A stretch of DNA of 64,000 nucleotides from Zoogloea sp. GTDB lineage: Bacteria > Pseudomonadota > Gammaproteobacteria > Burkholderiales > Rhodocyclaceae. The notes beneath the pieces are model-generated. The model worked only from the letters and a program-made list of their open reading frames with translations, was not told the DNA's origin and searched no databases. The translations under genes and the position numbers were made by a program. Below are positions 26,848-35,185 of this stretch, piece after piece. The stretch's first letter is position 1, and every line of letters starts with the position of its first letter. The DNA is taken from assembly GCF_028693495.1 (NCBI RefSeq), contig NZ_JAQUVG010000004.1:1-64000 (forward strand). The letters are read 5' to 3'.

Positions 26848-27375
26848 CTACTCCCGTTTGGTGAAGCTCAGACTGACTTCGCCCAGCCGGAAGCCAAACT
26901 TGCTCATCACCGAGCGGTTGAGCATCACCTTGTCGTCCATCAGGAACATCCAGTCGTCGAAGTCCACGTTGTAAACCTTGCCGTCCACCGGCAGGGCCAG
27001 CACGTACTTCCAGCGTAGCGCATTGCCATGGGCTTCGCCCTGGGCCTCGCCGACCACATCGTCCGCCCGGCCGGTGTAGCGATGGGCATCGTGCTTGGTC
27101 ACGGTCCACACCCGCCGCTGGGTGGTGCCGTCGGAGTAGGTGAAACGCTCGTCCAGGGTACCGACATTGCCTTCCCAGCGGGCCGCGATCTCCACATGGA
27201 AGCGCTTGACCACCTTGCCCGAACGATCCTGGAACATCCCGTGGGCATCCAGTGTGCCGTTGAAATAGCGGGCCAGATCCAGCTCGGGTTTTTCGGCGGC
27301 ATAGTCAGTGGTGTTGACTGACGCACAGCCTCCCAGGCCAATGACACCAGCCAGCAACAGTGCGATCTTGCTCAT
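26848..27375 (-). CDS. DUF3833 family lipoprotein
   Basis: Lipobox GLGGCAS; LDLARYFNGTLDAHGMFQDRSGKVVKRFHVEI. Confidence 0.88.
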   Translation of the reverse strand: MSKIALLLAGVIGLGGCASVNTTDYAAEKPELDLARYFNGTLDAHGMFQDRSGKVVKRFHVEIAARWEGNVGTLDERFTYSDGTTQRRVWTVTKHDAHRYTGRADDVVGEAQGEAHGNALRWKYVLALPVDGKVYNVDFDDWMFLMDDKVMLNRSVMSKFGFRLGEVSLSFTKRE

Positions 27376-27401: not shown

Positions 27402-28640
27402 CTAGATGGATTTCCTCAGGCGCCACAGGGCCACCCCTGCCACAAGCTTGAGGATCAGCGGCAATACGGCATAAACACCAGCCAGAGCACTCAGGGCCGC
27501 CGGATCCCGGCTGCCCGGCACGTAGCCCAGGCTCCCCAGGAGGGGAAGCGCAAGACCGGCAGCGAGCGCCAGATTGGCCTTGGTCACGAAAGTCCACCAG
27601 CCGAAGCACGCCCCTGCCCTGCCCGCCTCACGGACGGCCAGCTGATCTGCCAGCAGGGCCGGCGGGAGCGCCAGATCCGCACCCAGGGCAAGGCCAGACA
27701 GGACACAGAGCACCAGATAAGGCTTCACATCCCCCGGCCCGAGGGTCCAGGCCCAGGCAAAGACCACCACCGCCAGCCCCATGCCCGCCAGCCACGCCAG
27801 GGGTTTGCCGAGACGCCGGGCCAGGCGCACCCACAGGGGAAGTCCGGCGGCCCCCGCGGTGAAGTAAGCCGCGAGAAAGAGACCGGCGAGATCCTCCCGC
27901 TGAATCACGTCGGCCACGAAGAACAGGACCGTGGACGCCGGGACTGCCGCCGCAATCCCATTGAGGGCAAAGACACCCAGCAAGGCCGCGAAGGAGCGAT
28001 CAGTCAGCGCCCGCCGCAGGGCCGGCCAGGCGGCCTCGGCCGAGGCTGGGTGCCGCTCCCCTACCGGCAGGGGTGGAAGGCAGACCAGGGCGAGCAGGAC
28101 CGCGCCGGCCGCAAAGAGCCACCCGGTCCACGCCAGCCCCTCCCTCAGCGTGTCGCCGAGCAGACCCGGCAAGGCCGCAGCCAGCACCACACCCATCAGC
28201 CCAAAGCCTTCCCGGCTGGCCACGAGGCGCGTACGGCCATCGGAATCCCCGCCCAGCTCAGCCCCCCAGGCAGAGTGGTTGATGGCAGCGACCGAGTACG
28301 CCAGGGTCACCAGCACCAGCAGGCTCGCCAGCCACACCGGCCCCGCCCCCGCCGGCGGCGCCAGCAGTCCTGTCATGCCCAGGGCCAGCAGGGGCAAAGC
28401 CACGAGCACCAGGATCTTGCGGGACAGCCAGCGATCCGATGCCCAGCCGATGAAAGGATCCGCCAGGGCATCCACGCTGCGCGTGGCCAGGAGGATGCCC
28501 CCCACCAGGCCCAGACTCAGTCCAGGCTGATCGGCATACAGCTTGGGGACATGCACATAGACCGGCAGAGCGGCAAAAGCCAGCGGCAACCCAAGCAGCC
28601 CATAACGCAGTGTCGGCGGAGCCGGTCGCTCGTCCCTCAC
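27402..28640 (-). CDS. MFS transporter
   Basis: 12-TM-like protein; RSVDALADPFIGWASDRW. Confidence 0.9.
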   Translation of the reverse strand: MRDERPAPPTLRYGLLGLPLAFAALPVYVHVPKLYADQPGLSLGLVGGILLATRSVDALADPFIGWASDRWLSRKILVLVALPLLALGMTGLLAPPAGAGPVWLASLLVLVTLAYSVAAINHSAWGAELGGDSDGRTRLVASREGFGLMGVVLAAALPGLLGDTLREGLAWTGWLFAAGAVLLALVCLPPLPVGERHPASAEAAWPALRRALTDRSFAALLGVFALNGIAAAVPASTVLFFVADVIQREDLAGLFLAAYFTAGAAGLPLWVRLARRLGKPLAWLAGMGLAVVVFAWAWTLGPGDVKPYLVLCVLSGLALGADLALPPALLADQLAVREAGRAGACFGWWTFVTKANLALAAGLALPLLGSLGYVPGSRDPAALSALAGVYAVLPLILKLVAGVALWRLRKSI

Positions 28641-29176
28641 GCTGGCAGGCCCAGGAGACGGCTGCGCAAGGCCGGCACGCGCGTCCGGACATCCAGCCAG
28701 ATGGCAAAGAAGGCCCGGGCGAAGGCCGGATCAAGCACTTCACCGGACAGGCGGCCCTGATGGTAAAACACCGCCCCCCGGCCCGGCAGATGAACCCCCA
28801 CGATGGTTTCGCCCGCCGCCACATCGGGGAAAACCCGCTCCAGCTCGACCTTCCAGCGGCTCAGGCGGGCTTCGTCCGCGCCGCCCAGGCGGCGCATTTC
28901 GTCCAGGCTGGTAGCCACCAGGGTCGCCCGGGAAAATCCCCGGGCGTAGTTCAAGGCCAGCGCATAGGGCTGATCGTCCCGGTAATCGCTGCCAGCCACC
29001 CAGAGCGTCGCATCGTAGAGCCGCAGCCCCAGGAAACTGGTCTCTCCCTTGCCCAGGGGCTTCCAGCCGGCGGACAGCGCCCGGACGGGCTCGGGCAGGC
29101 TGGCCGACGCGGCCCCTCCAAAGGCCAGGCAGGCCACCCCCAGCAGGCAAAGCAGGGCTCTACGCAGGGTTTTCAT
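28637..29176 (-). CDS. Chalcone isomerase-like family protein
   Basis: Signal peptide; LGLRLYDATLWVAG; LNYARGFSRATLVATSLDEMRRLG. Confidence 0.82.
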   Translation of the reverse strand: MKTLRRALLCLLGVACLAFGGAASASLPEPVRALSAGWKPLGKGETSFLGLRLYDATLWVAGSDYRDDQPYALALNYARGFSRATLVATSLDEMRRLGGADEARLSRWKVELERVFPDVAAGETIVGVHLPGRGAVFYHQGRLSGEVLDPAFARAFFAIWLDVRTRVPALRSRLLGLPA

Positions 29177-30389
29177 GATGCAGCTGGAACTGATGGACAT
29201 CCACGCTGCCCGCCCGGAACCCGGCCTCGCAATACGCCAGGTAGAAACGCCACAGACGGACGAAACGCTCGTCATACCCCAGGCTGCGGGTCTGGATCAG
29301 GGTTGCTTCAAACCCCTCCCGCCAGCGGACCAGGGTTTCTGCATAATCCAGCCCGAAGGCCCGATCCCCGGCCACTGCCAGACCGGCCCTGCGGGCGTGG
29401 CGCACGAATACGGCGGGGCTCGGCAGCATGCCGCCGGGAAAGACATAGCGCTGGATGAAGTCAGTGCCCTTGCGGTAGCTGGCAAACAGTTCGTTGGCGA
29501 TCGTGATGACCTGGATCACTGCCCGGCCCCCCGGCTTGAGCCGCTCCCGGATCTGACGGAAATAGCCCGGCCAGAAACGTTCGCCCACGGCCTCCAGCAT
29601 CTCGATGGAGACGATGTGGTCGTACTGGCCGCGCACGTCCCGGTAGTCGCATAGCTCGAAGTCCGCCCGGTCGGCCCAGCCCCCCTCCTCGGCCCGCTGG
29701 CGGGCCCAGGCCAGCTGCTCCCTTGACAGGGTCAGCCCCAGCACCCGGCAGCCATATTCGGTGGTCGCCACCTCGGCAAAGCCTCCCCAGCCACACCCGA
29801 TCTCGAGGATCGTCTGACCTGGCGTCGGGGCCAGCTGATCGAGGATATGGCGATACTTGCGCAGCTGAGCCGACTCCAGATCATCCCGGGGGCCCAGCTC
29901 CAGGGCGCTGGAGTAGGTCATCGTCCGGTCCAGCCAGAGGCGGTAGAAATCATTGCCCAGATCATAATGGGCTTCGATGTTGCGCTTCGAGCCGGCCCGG
30001 GTATTGGCCCGCAGCAGGTGGGTCAGGCGATGCCCCAGCAGGCGCCAGACCTTGCCATGAATGGCATTGGCCAGGGGCGCCCGGTTGCGGGCGAGGAGCG
30101 TGAGCAACGCGGGCAGGTTGTCGGTGTGCCAGTCACCCGCCATCCAGGCTTCGGCAAAACCGATGTCCCCCTTGGCCAGGATGTCGTCAAAGACCTCCTC
30201 GTCGGCCACGGACATGTGGGCAACGCAGGGACCCTGCCCGACCTTCCTCGACATTCCGTTGGGCAGGGTTACGTCCAGGCTGCCTCCCTGGATGCTGTCG
30301 AGCAGTCCCAGGACCAGCCGGGTGCCCCGGCGGAGGTGGGCGACAGTGTCGGCGGTTGCTCCGACGATGTTTTCATCGAGCCTGTTCAT
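29160..30389 (-). CDS. Cyclopropane-fatty-acyl-phospholipid synthase family SAM methyltransferase
   Basis: NIEAHYDLGNDFYRLWLDRTMTYSSA; ILEIGCGWGGFAEVA; SIEMLEAVGERFWPGYF. Confidence 0.95.
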   Translation of the reverse strand: MNRLDENIVGATADTVAHLRRGTRLVLGLLDSIQGGSLDVTLPNGMSRKVGQGPCVAHMSVADEEVFDDILAKGDIGFAEAWMAGDWHTDNLPALLTLLARNRAPLANAIHGKVWRLLGHRLTHLLRANTRAGSKRNIEAHYDLGNDFYRLWLDRTMTYSSALELGPRDDLESAQLRKYRHILDQLAPTPGQTILEIGCGWGGFAEVATTEYGCRVLGLTLSREQLAWARQRAEEGGWADRADFELCDYRDVRGQYDHIVSIEMLEAVGERFWPGYFRQIRERLKPGGRAVIQVITIANELFASYRKGTDFIQRYVFPGGMLPSPAVFVRHARRAGLAVAGDRAFGLDYAETLVRWREGFEATLIQTRSLGYDERFVRLWRFYLAYCEAGFRAGSVDVHQFQLHHENPA

Positions 30390-31159
30390 GAAGAGATCTC
30401 CTCGGCCGGGGGCAAGGGTTTGCGGAAGAAGGGAACACGCTTGAGGGCCAGGCGCAAGGCCTGCCAGTGGATGCGGAACATCACGCCGAATGTCATCAGG
30501 GGAAGACGGGCCAGCCAGCGCAGGAGGACCGCGCCCGCCAGGGGCTCCTCCCGACCGGACAGGCGGGTGGCCAGCTGGCAGTGATCCCCCTCCCAGTAAT
30601 CGATGGCAGTATTCACCACCCCCCCCTGCCGGTCAAAACGGAAGCGGTACTCGCCCCTGACCGGAAAAAAGGGCGATACGTGAAAGATCTTGCAGGCCCG
30701 CAGCTCATCTCCGGCCGTGATGGGCCGCCGGTCCGGATGGGCCACCAGGTAGTTGTGGCGCTCGCCAAAGGTGTTGCTCACCTCCGCCAGCACGGCGCGG
30801 AGACGCCCCGAGCGGTCGTGACAGAACCAGAAACTGACCGGGTTGAACAGGTAGCCGAACATCCTCGGCATGGTCTGCAGAACCACCTCACCATCCGCCT
30901 CATGGACCCCCTGCCCCGCCAGCAGATCGCGGATCCAGGGCAGCAGCGGCGAACCATCCCGGGCACCATGGTCCCGGTTGTGGAGTCCGAACACATGGGC
31001 ACGGTTGACCCCGAGCAGCGGAACCCGGAGCGTGTCCAGCTGGCTCAGTGGCACCCGCAGCGTGGCCAGGGGATAAGTGAAGCGGTTGTGTGCCGGCCGG
31101 GTCCGTTCGTGCATCACCGCACCGAAACAGACCACCGGAGTGAAGGCGCCGCCGCTCAT
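30386..31159 (-). CDS. DUF1365 family protein
   Basis: VMHERTRPAHNRFTYPLATLRV; GYLFNPVSFWFCHDRSG; EVSNTFGERHNYLV. Confidence 0.93.
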   Translation of the reverse strand: MSGGAFTPVVCFGAVMHERTRPAHNRFTYPLATLRVPLSQLDTLRVPLLGVNRAHVFGLHNRDHGARDGSPLLPWIRDLLAGQGVHEADGEVVLQTMPRMFGYLFNPVSFWFCHDRSGRLRAVLAEVSNTFGERHNYLVAHPDRRPITAGDELRACKIFHVSPFFPVRGEYRFRFDRQGGVVNTAIDYWEGDHCQLATRLSGREEPLAGAVLLRWLARLPLMTFGVMFRIHWQALRLALKRVPFFRKPLPPAEEISS

Positions 31160-32499
31160 CCCGCCTGTGCCACCGGACAGGCCTGGCCACCCTGCCAGGG
31201 GGCCCGTACGCCCATGGCATTGACTACGGCCAGCGCAGACTTGAGACCATCCTCGTGGAAGCCATAGCCGGTCCAGGCGCCTGCAAACCAGGTATTGCGT
31301 GCGCCTTGCAGGGAAGGCAGGCGGCCCTGGGCATCGATGGCCGCCTGGTCGAACACCGGATGGGCGTAACTGAAACGCCCATGCACATGTTCGGGGCGGG
31401 GCTCCACCAGGGGATTGAGGGACACCACCACGGGGGTTTCGACCGGCAGGGGCTGCAGGCGGTTGAGCAGGTAGGAAACGGACACCGGGCGCTCCCCGGG
31501 AGCGCCATGGCCGGACAGGTAGTTCCAGGCAGACCACACGCTCCTGCGCCGGGGCAGCAGGCGTGGATCAGTGTGCAGCCAGGCGTCATTGGACTGATAT
31601 TTCACGGCTCCCAGCAGGCGACGCTCCTCCGGGGCAGTGCCCTTGCCGAGGATCGCCAGGGTCTGGTCCGAGTGACAGGCAAAGACGATCTCGTCGAAGC
31701 GCTCCCGGCCATCACGGGACTCGACCCAGACGCCCCCCCCGTCCTCCCTCAGAACCCCCGTCACCGGCCTGGCAACACGGACATCACCAATCCCGTCCAG
31801 CAGCTTGCGCACATAGGTGCGGGCACCATTCCTGACCGTGTACCAGGTCGGACGGTCAAAGATCTGCAGCAGCCCGTGGTTATGGCAGAAGCGCACGAAG
31901 GTGGCCAGCGGATACGCCATCATGGTCCGGGTCGAGCAGCTCCAGATCGCGGCCGCCATCGGGATCAGGTACCAGTCCCGGAAAGCCTGGCCATAGTCGT
32001 GGACTGTCAGGTAGTCACCCAGAGCAATGTCCGGACAAGTCCCTTCCCGTGCCATCCGGGTGGTTTCGCGGTTGAAGCGGCGGATATCGCCAAGCATGCC
32101 CCAGAAGGCCGGACGGGCCAGATTGCTGCGCTGGGCAAACAGGCTGGCCAGATCGCTTCCGGCCCACTCCAGCTCCGGCGTGCTGAGGCTCACGCCAAAG
32201 GACATCTCGCTCTCGACGGACTCCACCTCCAGCAGGCTGAACAGGGCACACAGGTTGGGGTAAGTACGCCGGTTGAATACCAGGAATCCCGTATCCACTG
32301 GAAAACACTGACCGTCCACCTCCACATCCACGGTGTTGGTGTGGCCACCCACGTAGCTTCCGGCCTCATAGAGCACGACTTCATGCTCCCGGCTGAGGAG
32401 CCAGGCCGCGGCCAGGCCGGAGATTCCCCCTCCCACCACGGCGATGCGGCGGGCTTTCGAGCCCCGTGCTTTCAGTCGATCCGGGTTTCCACGATCCAT
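31156..32499 (-). CDS. NAD(P)/FAD-dependent oxidoreductase (amine oxidase-like)
   Basis: IAVVGGGISGLAAAWLLSREHEVVLYEAGSYVGGHTNTVDVEVDGQCFPVDTGFLVFNRRTYPNL. Confidence 0.94.
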   Translation of the reverse strand: MDRGNPDRLKARGSKARRIAVVGGGISGLAAAWLLSREHEVVLYEAGSYVGGHTNTVDVEVDGQCFPVDTGFLVFNRRTYPNLCALFSLLEVESVESEMSFGVSLSTPELEWAGSDLASLFAQRSNLARPAFWGMLGDIRRFNRETTRMAREGTCPDIALGDYLTVHDYGQAFRDWYLIPMAAAIWSCSTRTMMAYPLATFVRFCHNHGLLQIFDRPTWYTVRNGARTYVRKLLDGIGDVRVARPVTGVLREDGGGVWVESRDGRERFDEIVFACHSDQTLAILGKGTAPEERRLLGAVKYQSNDAWLHTDPRLLPRRRSVWSAWNYLSGHGAPGERPVSVSYLLNRLQPLPVETPVVVSLNPLVEPRPEHVHGRFSYAHPVFDQAAIDAQGRLPSLQGARNTWFAGAWTGYGFHEDGLKSALAVVNAMGVRAPWQGGQACPVAQAG

Positions 32500-32520: not shown

Positions 32521-33321
32521 TCAGCCGTTGCTGCCTTCGATGAAGGCGTAAGCAGAATGATTGTGGATGGATTCAAAGTTCTCCGACTCGATGGTCCAGC
32601 GGGCAATGCACGGCTCAGCCTTCAGGCGCAAGGCCACATCGCGGACCAGATCCTCCACGAACTTGGGGTTGTCGTAAGCGCGCTCGGTCACCCATTTCTC
32701 ATCCGGGCGCTTGAGCAGGCCGAAGACCTCGCAGGAAGCCTCCTCCTCGGCAATCCGGACCAGCCTCTCCAGACTCATCTGATCCCGCAGCACAGCGGTC
32801 AGGGTCAGATGGGAGCGCTGGTTGTGGGCACCATACTCGGAAATCTTCTTGGAGCAGGGGCACAGGCTGGTCACCGGAACCACCACCTGCAGGCTGACTT
32901 CGGCCTCCCGGCCAAAGGCTTTCTCGATGGTGATGGATGCGTCCATGTCGAGCAGGCTTTCCACACCGGAGACCGGCGCCTGCTTGCGGACGAAGAAGGG
33001 AAAACGCATGTGGATGCGTCCCGCCGGGGCGCCCAGATGGACCAGGGTATCGTTCATCATCACCTGCAGCTCGGTCAGATCGAGCGGGCCCCGTTCGGTC
33101 TCCAGGATTTCCACGAACCGGGACATGTGCGTGCCTTTCACCTCCGGCGGAAGGAAGACCGTCATTTCCAGGGTGGCGACGGTGGGCTGGACACGGCCCT
33201 GACCGTCGCGCAGGCTGATGGGATAACGCAAGCCACGCACGCCGACTCGCTGGATCGCCAGCTGGCGCAGATCTTCGGAAGCCTGAATGTCGGGGAGGTG
33301 GAATTTCTCGGGCGCGTTCAT
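32521..33321 (-). CDS. folE2: GTP cyclohydrolase FolE2
   Basis: VTSLCPCSKKISEYGAHNQRSHLTL motif. Confidence 0.94.
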   Translation of the reverse strand: MNAPEKFHLPDIQASEDLRQLAIQRVGVRGLRYPISLRDGQGRVQPTVATLEMTVFLPPEVKGTHMSRFVEILETERGPLDLTELQVMMNDTLVHLGAPAGRIHMRFPFFVRKQAPVSGVESLLDMDASITIEKAFGREAEVSLQVVVPVTSLCPCSKKISEYGAHNQRSHLTLTAVLRDQMSLERLVRIAEEEASCEVFGLLKRPDEKWVTERAYDNPKFVEDLVRDVALRLKAEPCIARWTIESENFESIHNHSAYAFIEGSNG

Positions 33322-33381: not shown

Positions 33382-33951
33382 TTACTGGGGGCGCTCGGCC
33401 AGAGCCTTCTCGACGGCATTCACCAGGGTCCGGCTGTCTGGCGCCGTTGTGCTGGGAAAACTCATGACCTTCTGACCGCTCCGGTCAATCAGGTATTTGT
33501 GAAAATTCCAGCGCGGGCGTTCCCCCGTGATGGAGGCCAGCTGCCGGTAAAACGGGTTGGCTGCGGATCCGCCCACCTCCGTCTTGGCCATCATGGGAAA
33601 CTTGACCCCATAAGTGAGGCGGCAGAAATCAGCGATCTCCTTGCTGCTGCCAGGCTCCTGGTTGCCGAAGTCGTTGGACGGAAAACCCACCACCACCAGA
33701 CCCTTGTCCTTGTACCTGGCATACATCTTTTCCAGTCCATCATACTGGCTGGTGAAGCCACAGTAACTCGCGGTATTGACCACCAGCAGCACCTTGCCCT
33801 GGTAATCGCACAGATTTTGGGTCTTGTCGTCCTGAAGACGCGGGAAGCTGTGGTTGAGCAGGCCAGGGCATGCCGCCTGCACGCTCCCAGCCCCCAGAAA
33901 CAGGAGAAGCAGGAGGGTCTGGAAGATCCCGGACGCAGAAGATGGGCTCAT
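33382..33951 (-). CDS. Glutathione peroxidase family protein with signal peptide (Cys type)
   Basis: LLVVNTASYCGFTSQYDGLEKMYARYKDKGLVVVGFPSNDFGNQEPGS; RWNFHKYLIDRSG. Confidence 0.93.
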   Translation of the reverse strand: MSPSSASGIFQTLLLLLFLGAGSVQAACPGLLNHSFPRLQDDKTQNLCDYQGKVLLVVNTASYCGFTSQYDGLEKMYARYKDKGLVVVGFPSNDFGNQEPGSSKEIADFCRLTYGVKFPMMAKTEVGGSAANPFYRQLASITGERPRWNFHKYLIDRSGQKVMSFPSTTAPDSRTLVNAVEKALAERPQ

Positions 33952-33955
33952 GGTG

Positions 33956-34165
33956 TCAAGCACCACTGTTCTGATGGACAAACCACAGTACGTCAATGTC
34001 TTCGTCCTGGACAGCAGGACGATCAGAATCTGCTTGGAGGACGCTCTCGACTCCCGTGAAGCTTACTGGGGAACGGGCCATCTGCTGGACACCGAAAGCG
34101 ATCCCAGCGAGAGCCAGCACCGTCATGAAGAGCGCCCTGGGTGTTTCCATCGACTGGGTATTCAT
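33956..34165 (-). CDS. Small membrane-anchored protein of unknown function
   Basis: 69 aa MNTQSMETPRALFMTVLALAGIAFGVQQMARSPVSFTGVESVLQADSDRPAVQDEDIDVLWFVHQNSGA; AGGA 8 nt before ATG; ends 4 nt before the GPx start. Confidence 0.7.
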   Translation of the reverse strand: MNTQSMETPRALFMTVLALAGIAFGVQQMARSPVSFTGVESVLQADSDRPAVQDEDIDVLWFVHQNSGA

Positions 34166-34170
34166 GATGT

Positions 34171-34183
34171 TTGTCCTAGACAA
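34171..34183. promoter_or_regulatory. Palindromic putative operator 1
   Basis: TTGTCCTAGACAA, arms TTGTC/GACAA. Confidence 0.65.
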
Positions 34184-34200
34184 GAACTGTTGATGTTTCT

Positions 34201-34229
34201 ACACTAGAAGCAATTCACGCTGATGTCAA
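34201..34229 (-). promoter_or_regulatory. Putative sigma70-type promoter for minus-strand operon
   Basis: Minus strand TTGACA-17nt-TAGTGT. Confidence 0.6.
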
Positions 34230-34233
34230 CTTT

Positions 34234-34246
34234 TTGTCCAGGACAA
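34234..34246. promoter_or_regulatory. Palindromic putative operator 2
   Basis: TTGTCCAGGACAA, perfect palindrome, containing the AGGA Shine-Dalgarno of the MerR gene. Confidence 0.7.
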
Positions 34247-34249
34247 TCA

Positions 34250-35185
34250 ATGAACAATCCTCTCCTTCCTGCTGGCCTTCCCATCGCTGCGGTGGAGCGT
34301 GACACGGGCCTGGCCAAGGACACCCTGCGGGTTTGGGAACGACGTTACGGATTCCCCCTGCCGGCCCGGGACACCCATGGAGAACGGGTTTATCCCCCCG
34401 AGCAAGTGGACAAGTTGCGACTGATCCGCCGGCTGACTGATCTGGGACATCGCCCAGCGAAGATCATCGGCCTCGACCTGAGCACCCTCACCCGGATGCT
34501 GGAGGACATGGGGAGTCCCAAGGATCCGGCCGATCCGGAACGAAGTGCCCAGTTTGCAGCGATCCTCAAGTTCGTCCGGCTGCACCTCCACGAAGATCTC
34601 CGCCGCAGCCTTCAGCAGCAACTGATGAAGCTCGGCCTGCAGCAGTTCGTGAGCAGTGTGGTCGCTCCCCTCAGCAGCCTGATCGGTGATGCCTGGCTGC
34701 GGGGAGAGCTGGAGATTGCGGAAGAGCACTTGTTTACCGAGCAGATCCAGAACATCCTGCGGGCAGCCATCAGCACCCAGCCGATGGCCCAGGGAGGACG
34801 GCCCGTGGTGCTGCTCACCACCTTTCCGGAAGAACAGCATGCCCTCGGGCTGCTGATGGTGGAGGCCATGATCGCCCCGGAAGGGGCCAGCTGCATCTCC
34901 CTGGGGACCCAGACACCTCTGGAGGACATCCGCGCCGCCACCGACGCCGCCAGCTTTGACATCGTTGCCGTCTCCTTCAGCGCCGCCTATCCGGCCCGCC
35001 AGGCAGTGGAGGGGCTGCGCAGCCTGCGGCAAAGCCTGCCGGAACAGGTCGCCCTCTGGGCCGGCGGGGCCGGAATCAGGGGCTGTGCCCGAAAACTGAC
35101 CGGCGTGCACCTGTTCGAATCTCTCGACGCAATCCCGGTGGCCATCGAAGCCTGGCGGCACCAGCGCGCCTCGGATCAGGCATAA
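34250..35185 (+). CDS. MerR family regulator with B12-binding domain (CarH/LitR-like putative light sensor)
   Basis: MerR HTH AVERDTGLAKDTLRVWERRYGFP; W-x9-EH (WLRGELEIAEEH) and ExHxxG (EQHALG) motifs; SLG and GGAG segments of B12 Rossmann fold. Confidence 0.9.
   Translation: MNNPLLPAGLPIAAVERDTGLAKDTLRVWERRYGFPLPARDTHGERVYPPEQVDKLRLIRRLTDLGHRPAKIIGLDLSTLTRMLEDMGSPKDPADPERSAQFAAILKFVRLHLHEDLRRSLQQQLMKLGLQQFVSSVVAPLSSLIGDAWLRGELEIAEEHLFTEQIQNILRAAISTQPMAQGGRPVVLLTTFPEEQHALGLLMVEAMIAPEGASCISLGTQTPLEDIRAATDAASFDIVAVSFSAAYPARQAVEGLRSLRQSLPEQVALWAGGAGIRGCARKLTGVHLFESLDAIPVAIEAWRHQRASDQA

Follow-up and report, generated by a model that had tools for sequence, protein, structure and literature searches.

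CarH, which also serves in optogenetics, is the model photoreceptor of the B12 type; its residues W131, E141, H142 and H177 hold adenosylcobalamin (AdoCbl). The published operators of CarH, the class I LitR known from Thermus thermophilus, Myxococcus and Bacillus megaterium, consist of tandem 11-bp direct repeats of the form nAnnTnnACAn and overlap the -35 box of the promoter (PMC8156234, PMC9304148). The sites of the class II LitR proteins (PplR1 and PmlR2 of Pseudomonas) have the form TGTACA-N12-TGTACA and occur twice per promoter, once at the -35 box and once between the transcription start and the ATG; these proteins have no second B12 domain and have a LOV partner (PMC9758184). In Sorangium cellulosum, a single CarH regulator has been suggested to act on a pair of overlapping divergent promoters simultaneously (PMC9304148). 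Looping repressors of the LacI type, which belong to an unrelated protein family, use operator pairs placed whole helical turns apart around promoters, and overlapping divergent promoters with looping have been described on plasmid pLS20 (PMC4207663).

The window, meaning the whole stretch of 64,000 nucleotides of Zoogloea sp. analysed here, contains a 76-bp element between a regulator gene, litR, and a divergent operon. The features of the element and the regulator gene are as follows.

34171-34183, no strand assigned: TTGTCCTAGACAA, operon-side (litR-distal) palindrome, which holds the litR -35 box TAGACA and the Shine-Dalgarno sequence of the small ORF
34177-34205, plus strand: predicted litR promoter, TAGACA (34177-34182), 17 bp, TACACT (34200-34205)
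34201-34229, minus strand: predicted operon promoter, TTGACA (34229-34224), 17 bp, TAGTGT (34206-34201)
34234-34246, no strand assigned: TTGTCCAGGACAA, litR-proximal palindrome, 4 bp upstream of the operon -35 box and overlapping the litR Shine-Dalgarno sequence
34250-35185, plus strand: litR/carH-type regulator gene, 311 aa, with MerR HTH, B12-binding_2 and B12-binding domains, all above the Pfam cut-offs

The original prediction had described two palindromes with centres 63 bp apart. Both 13-mers were recovered exactly at these coordinates, with centres at 34177 and 34240, and TTGACA-17-TAGTGT on the minus strand and TAGACA-17-TACACT on the plus strand were confirmed between the palindrome sites, with overlapping -10 boxes and with the litR -35 box falling within the left palindrome. 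The plus-strand promoter had also been called the weaker of the two. Since each promoter scores 9/12 against the consensus, it is not clearly weaker, and an automatic promoter scan returned only the plus-strand promoter. The operator proposed here overlaps a -35 box like those of CarH, whereas it takes the form of two 13-bp inverted repeats standing whole turns apart around two promoters. As a predicted operator, this inverted-repeat pair differs in form from both the published CarH sites and the class II LitR sites. In S. cellulosum, a single tandem-repeat operator covers both promoters, whereas here a phased pair brackets them.

For comparison, 78 orthologous litR loci were taken from GTDB genomes. 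A run of three nAnnTnnACAn repeats was found in 0/78 loci, while the litR side has two half-sites 11 bp apart in 19/78 loci as well as in the window. Assignment of the regulator to class II LitR was rejected: the second B12 domain is present, and TGTACA-N12-TGTACA occurs in 0/78 loci. The reading that we prefer, with a probability of about 0.62, is that the 76-bp element is a double operator at which the neighbouring LitR/CarH-type regulator would repress both promoters in the dark.

Pairs of palindromes were collected both from the 78 loci (45 pairs) and by a protein-blind scan for two copies of the motif TGTCNNNGACA at a distance d of 30-121 bp, covering 399 genomes of the order, with one hit (G206) added from a scan of the class. 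When loci are compared across the 76 bp, conservation is confined to the two palindromes and the promoter boxes, and the litR -35 box in the form T[GA]GACA is retained in 14/15 scan pairs and in 35/45 pairs from the 78 loci. In the window, AGGA lies 8 nt ahead of the ATG of the small ORF (34165, minus strand) and 6 nt ahead of the ATG of litR (34250). The claim that the palindromes supply both Shine-Dalgarno sites holds for the window, but it applies only partly to the relatives: AGGA is present in the operon-side palindrome of 38/45 pairs from the 78 loci and 13/15 scan pairs, and in the litR-side palindrome of 20/45 and 4/15, respectively. As only a minority of the relatives have AGGA on the litR side, this overlap was rejected as a general cause of palindrome conservation. 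The overlap of both palindromes with Shine-Dalgarno sequences in the window would also suit a model in which they act in RNA, as hairpins that hide these sequences. That model is hardly conceivable and was rejected, because the leaders fold no better than shuffled sequences (z = 0.7 and 0.5); moreover, many relatives keep the litR-side palindrome without AGGA. The partial AGGA overlap and the leader folding taken together, conservation of the palindromes is best explained at the level of DNA.

The genes on the minus strand and a further palindrome are listed below in the order in which they are read from the element.

33956-34165, minus strand: small first ORF, 69 aa, with one hydrophobic segment, conserved among relatives
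34002-34014, no strand assigned: third palindrome, degenerate: TCGTCCTGGACAG, within the small ORF and 169 bp away from the operon-side one
33382-33951, minus strand: glutathione peroxidase gene
32521-33321, minus strand: GTP cyclohydrolase FolE2 gene (folE2)
31156-32499, minus strand: FAD/NAD(P) amine-oxidase-like oxidoreductase gene (Pfam)
30386-31369, minus strand: DUF1365 gene (Pfam), start uncertain
29160-30389, minus strand: cyclopropane/furan fatty acid synthase-like gene (CMAS family)
28637-29275, minus strand: chalcone-isomerase-like gene (Pfam)
27402-28640, minus strand: MFS transporter gene (Pfam)
26848-27375, minus strand: DUF3833 gene (Pfam)

The nine genes from the 69-aa ORF to the DUF3833 gene apparently form one operon, which would serve in light defence. 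The small ORF gave no match in Pfam or NCBIfam; it heads the operon in many relatives, and its product shows a conserved C-terminal motif resembling DxDVxxFxHxN. Further TGTCNNNGACA sites are found in many relatives at 149-175 bp beyond the operon-side palindrome, often at 158-163 bp, with a spacing less regular than that of the main pair. A third palindrome of the TGTCNNNGACA type was seen in the small ORF of loci L024, L028, L030, L032, L035, L039 and others. At this palindrome, the dyad persists through variation of the codons that separate V from D (Q, M, L), which suggests that the site may serve as an auxiliary operator within a coding sequence.

The link between the motif and the regulator gene is close. 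TGTCNNNGACA was found at most 350 bp upstream of litR in 77 of the 78 orthologous loci. These upstream stretches hold 136 sites in 27.7 kb and the remainder of the loci 24 in 826 kb, so that the density is about 170-fold higher before litR. Comparison of the loci thus supports the palindromes as operator-like elements tied to the MerR/B12 gene. In the Thauera-type loci, where litR is not next to the operon, a pair is retained at the operon promoter (at 63, 63, 63, 63 and 61 bp) and one palindrome remains at litR. In one further locus (L089, genome G087), a 61-bp pair lies away from litR between ORFs that by eye look like DUF393-type and CIA30-type genes, with LitR encoded elsewhere in the genome. 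That some other transcription factor binds the palindromes is highly improbable. The 13-bp inverted repeat does differ from the published form of the CarH operator (PMC8156234, PMC9304148), but all 15 promoter-like scan pairs adjoin a LitR gene, the two genomes with the pair elsewhere (G087 and G434) encode LitR too, and each arm bears a CarH-like ACA, with TnnACA on one strand. None of the motif strings searched for occurs in the open library covered; an earlier description elsewhere is possible.

A genome search had been proposed as a check of the original prediction. Five exact TTGTCNNNGACAA sites were found in 3.5 Mb, two of them in the window, where the observed pair is far above chance. 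Two others are intergenic: one directly precedes a DUF3429 gene (C71:6046-6058, locus L003), with a one-mismatch site 141 bp upstream, and another directly precedes an FAD oxidoreductase gene (C168:12028-12040, locus L004). The exact match at C14:68393 was rejected as an operator since it sits within ribosomal protein genes, and the four one-mismatch sites examined (on C66, C84, C86 and C15) were likewise set aside, as they fall within reading frames and are probably chance matches. The light-inducible genes linked to LitR in Pseudomonas include those for an FAD oxidoreductase, FolE, UfaM and an SDR (PMC9758184), and the gene set repressed by class II LitR is similar to the one found here. This suggests a regulon matching that of Pseudomonas LitR; a one-to-one equivalence with the Pseudomonas light-inducible genes would be presumptive.

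Among named relatives, the regulator is closest to proteins from Zoogloea, at 73-75% identity, and its sequence matches CarH with an E-value of about 1e-26. The predicted model has a mean pLDDT of 88.6 and its best PDB matches are Thermus CarH, with a TM-score of about 0.83-0.86 by target length and an rmsd of about 2.6 A for the B12 domains, at about 27% identity in the structural alignment. The regulator shares with CarH the MerR HTH, the two B12-binding domains, the Wx9EH motif, the lower axial His and the fold. Residues W149, E159, H160 and H197, which correspond to CarH W131, E141, H142 and H177, are invariant in 93/93 homologues. In the NCBIfam equivalog model for CarH (NF052513), it scores 128 bits, far under the cut-off of 400; judged by its sequence, the protein is therefore a B12-type LitR/CarH homologue, and not CarH in the narrow NCBIfam sense. 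A corrinoid adenosyltransferase (PF02572) is encoded in the same genome.

One difference from CarH within the protein is the missing H132, the light-state ligand of the Thermus protein. At this position, none of the 93 homologues has His, and the window has Leu150. Residue 150 (about 34697-34699) is Leu, Met or Ala throughout this LitR branch. As the residues that hold AdoCbl are nevertheless invariant, the light-state chemistry of this branch must, on the evidence of the alignment, differ from that of Thermus CarH. The published light-response signature comprises GxxW, EH, GxxH and GxxxP (PMC11796333). The regulator of the window has GxxW, EH and GxxxP, and in GxxH it has the His but Glu for Gly; among the homologues, the His is invariant and the Gly is missing in most. 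These two departures, the absence of H132 and that of the Gly, are what would be expected if LitR did bind the operator pair but responded to B12 status, redox or another cue than light. The tetramer of the H132A variant of Thermus CarH mostly persists in the light (PMC10442372). However, CtMerR carries Arg at the H132 position and still changes from a dark tetramer to a light monomer (PMC11796333), and there is overlap between the gene set of the operon (folate, FAD oxidoreductase, CMAS/UfaM-like, SDR) and the LitR regulon that light induces in Pseudomonas (PMC9758184). A cue other than light is therefore considered quite unlikely, and light is kept as the signal in the preferred reading.

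The original prediction had further argued from the phasing of the two sites, 63 bp being six helical turns. In the scan, the 15 litR-adjacent pairs besides the window are spaced by 52, 53, 62 (2), 63 (5), 64 (4), 74 and 76 bp, i.e. by 52-53, 62-64 or 74-76 bp, corresponding to 5, 6 and 7 helical turns; no litR-adjacent pair was found in the scans at 30-51, 54-61, 65-73 or 77-121 bp. Where no LitR gene is nearby, the pairs are scattered over 30-120 bp as chance would give, and those with d = 91-121 bp, all away from litR, were discarded as looking like chance or repeats. At a period of 10.5 bp, the phase concentration of the litR-adjacent pairs is R = 0.87, a value reached by 0 of 1,000,000 uniform draws over 45-85 bp, against R = 0.23 for the 16 pairs remote from litR; with a period of 11 bp, the fit to the spacings is equally good. 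Since 63 bp may be plain inheritance, stricter tests were run. Restricted to the lineages that left 63 bp by at least 3 bp, the test gave P = 0.002, the scan genomes sharing ancestry and the lineages being counted by hand from the loci; on the distinct spacing values other than 62-64 bp, where the test loses power, it gave P = 0.16.

The history of the spacing was also reconstructed by parsimony, using a LitR tree built from 69 loci. One-turn changes number about seven: the 7-turn class was entered about five times and the 5-turn class two or three times. A single change is off-phase, a non-integral shift to 58 bp in two near-identical loci (L033 and L034). Here two litR genes share one locus, with a 62-bp pair at one and the 58-bp pair, the only clear off-phase spacing, at the other. 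Measured from the start of the litR-side palindrome, the operon -35 box lies at 16-18 bp in the 63-bp class (17 bp in 33 loci), at 28-31 bp where the spacing is 74-76 bp, and at 6 bp, hence inside the palindrome, in the 52-53 bp class. These offsets step by one turn, so the litR-side palindrome shifts by whole turns relative to the promoters, whereas the operon-side palindrome stays fixed because it carries the litR -35 box. The whole-turn evolution of the spacing thus upholds the phasing argument, and selection on the helical phase of the two sites is supported by the comparison, with all 15 scan pairs at whole turns and mostly one-turn shifts on the tree; the 58-bp spacing stands as an exception.

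The phase does not by itself specify how the two sites are held. LitR might occupy both palindromes without a loop, either by spreading side by side on one face of the DNA in an 11-bp register or because the proximal site has to face RNA polymerase, and the whole-turn rule would then reflect register with the promoter rather than bridging. The offsets from palindrome to operon -35 box do step by 11 bp (6, 17, 28), and TGGACA, the inner half-site of the litR-side palindrome, forms with the operon -35 box TTGACA two TnnACA half-sites 11 bp apart; a lateral CarH-like binding without a loop would thus equally give whole-turn spacing. The PmlR2 footprint, in addition, is continuous over two sites at the same promoter positions (PMC9758184). 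As the litR -35 box lies inside the distal palindrome, which is fixed to the promoters, its partner's phase relative to the promoter is inseparable from the phase between the two palindromes. On the other hand, no tandem run of three TnnACA repeats occurs in any of the 78 loci, and only promoter boxes are conserved between the palindromes. Binding in register with the promoter, like side-by-side contact in place of bridging, is held to be less likely, though a serious alternative; bridging by one oligomer is preferred, although it is the least certain step of the model and its odds fall slightly below even.

In the preferred reading of the element as a double operator, oligomers of AdoCbl-bound LitR would occupy both 13-bp palindromes in the dark. 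Relative to the predicted operon start, the operon-side site lies about 11-24 bp downstream, and it falls within the litR -35 box; the litR-side site lies just upstream of the operon -35 box and downstream of the litR start. With each promoter bracketed by sites in this way and covered or trapped by the protein, regulator and operon would be shut off together, combining autorepression of litR with repression of the operon. Coupled repression, as originally predicted, fits this arrangement because both promoters sit between the sites. The whole-turn spacing places both sites on one face of the DNA, where a single oligomer could hold both of them; the simplest candidate is a tetramer that puts two DNA-binding domains on each palindrome. 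The oligomer would come apart when light photolyses AdoCbl or when AdoCbl is lost, and both promoters would be freed. From the arrangement and its conservation, we infer that LitR is the binder, that it represses, that it does so cooperatively and that light is the signal. The two sites lie in helical phase, as is characteristic of the operators of looping repressors, and looping is put forward here as a proposal. Its fullest form, in which a tetramer closes a short DNA loop of about 63 bp round the two divergent promoters in the dark and light opens the loop without a His132 switch, is offered tentatively, at odds well short of even. If true, it would represent a repression loop that light can break and a mode of DNA binding not described for CarH.

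In a large proteobacterial branch as yet unstudied, inverted repeats appear to be used in pairs that keep to a helical register; this would couple the regulator to its operon, and cooperative or looped repression by a photoreceptor thereby becomes directly testable. The element itself is a compact, predicted light-controlled divergent promoter, and its motif may be used for mapping LitR regulons.
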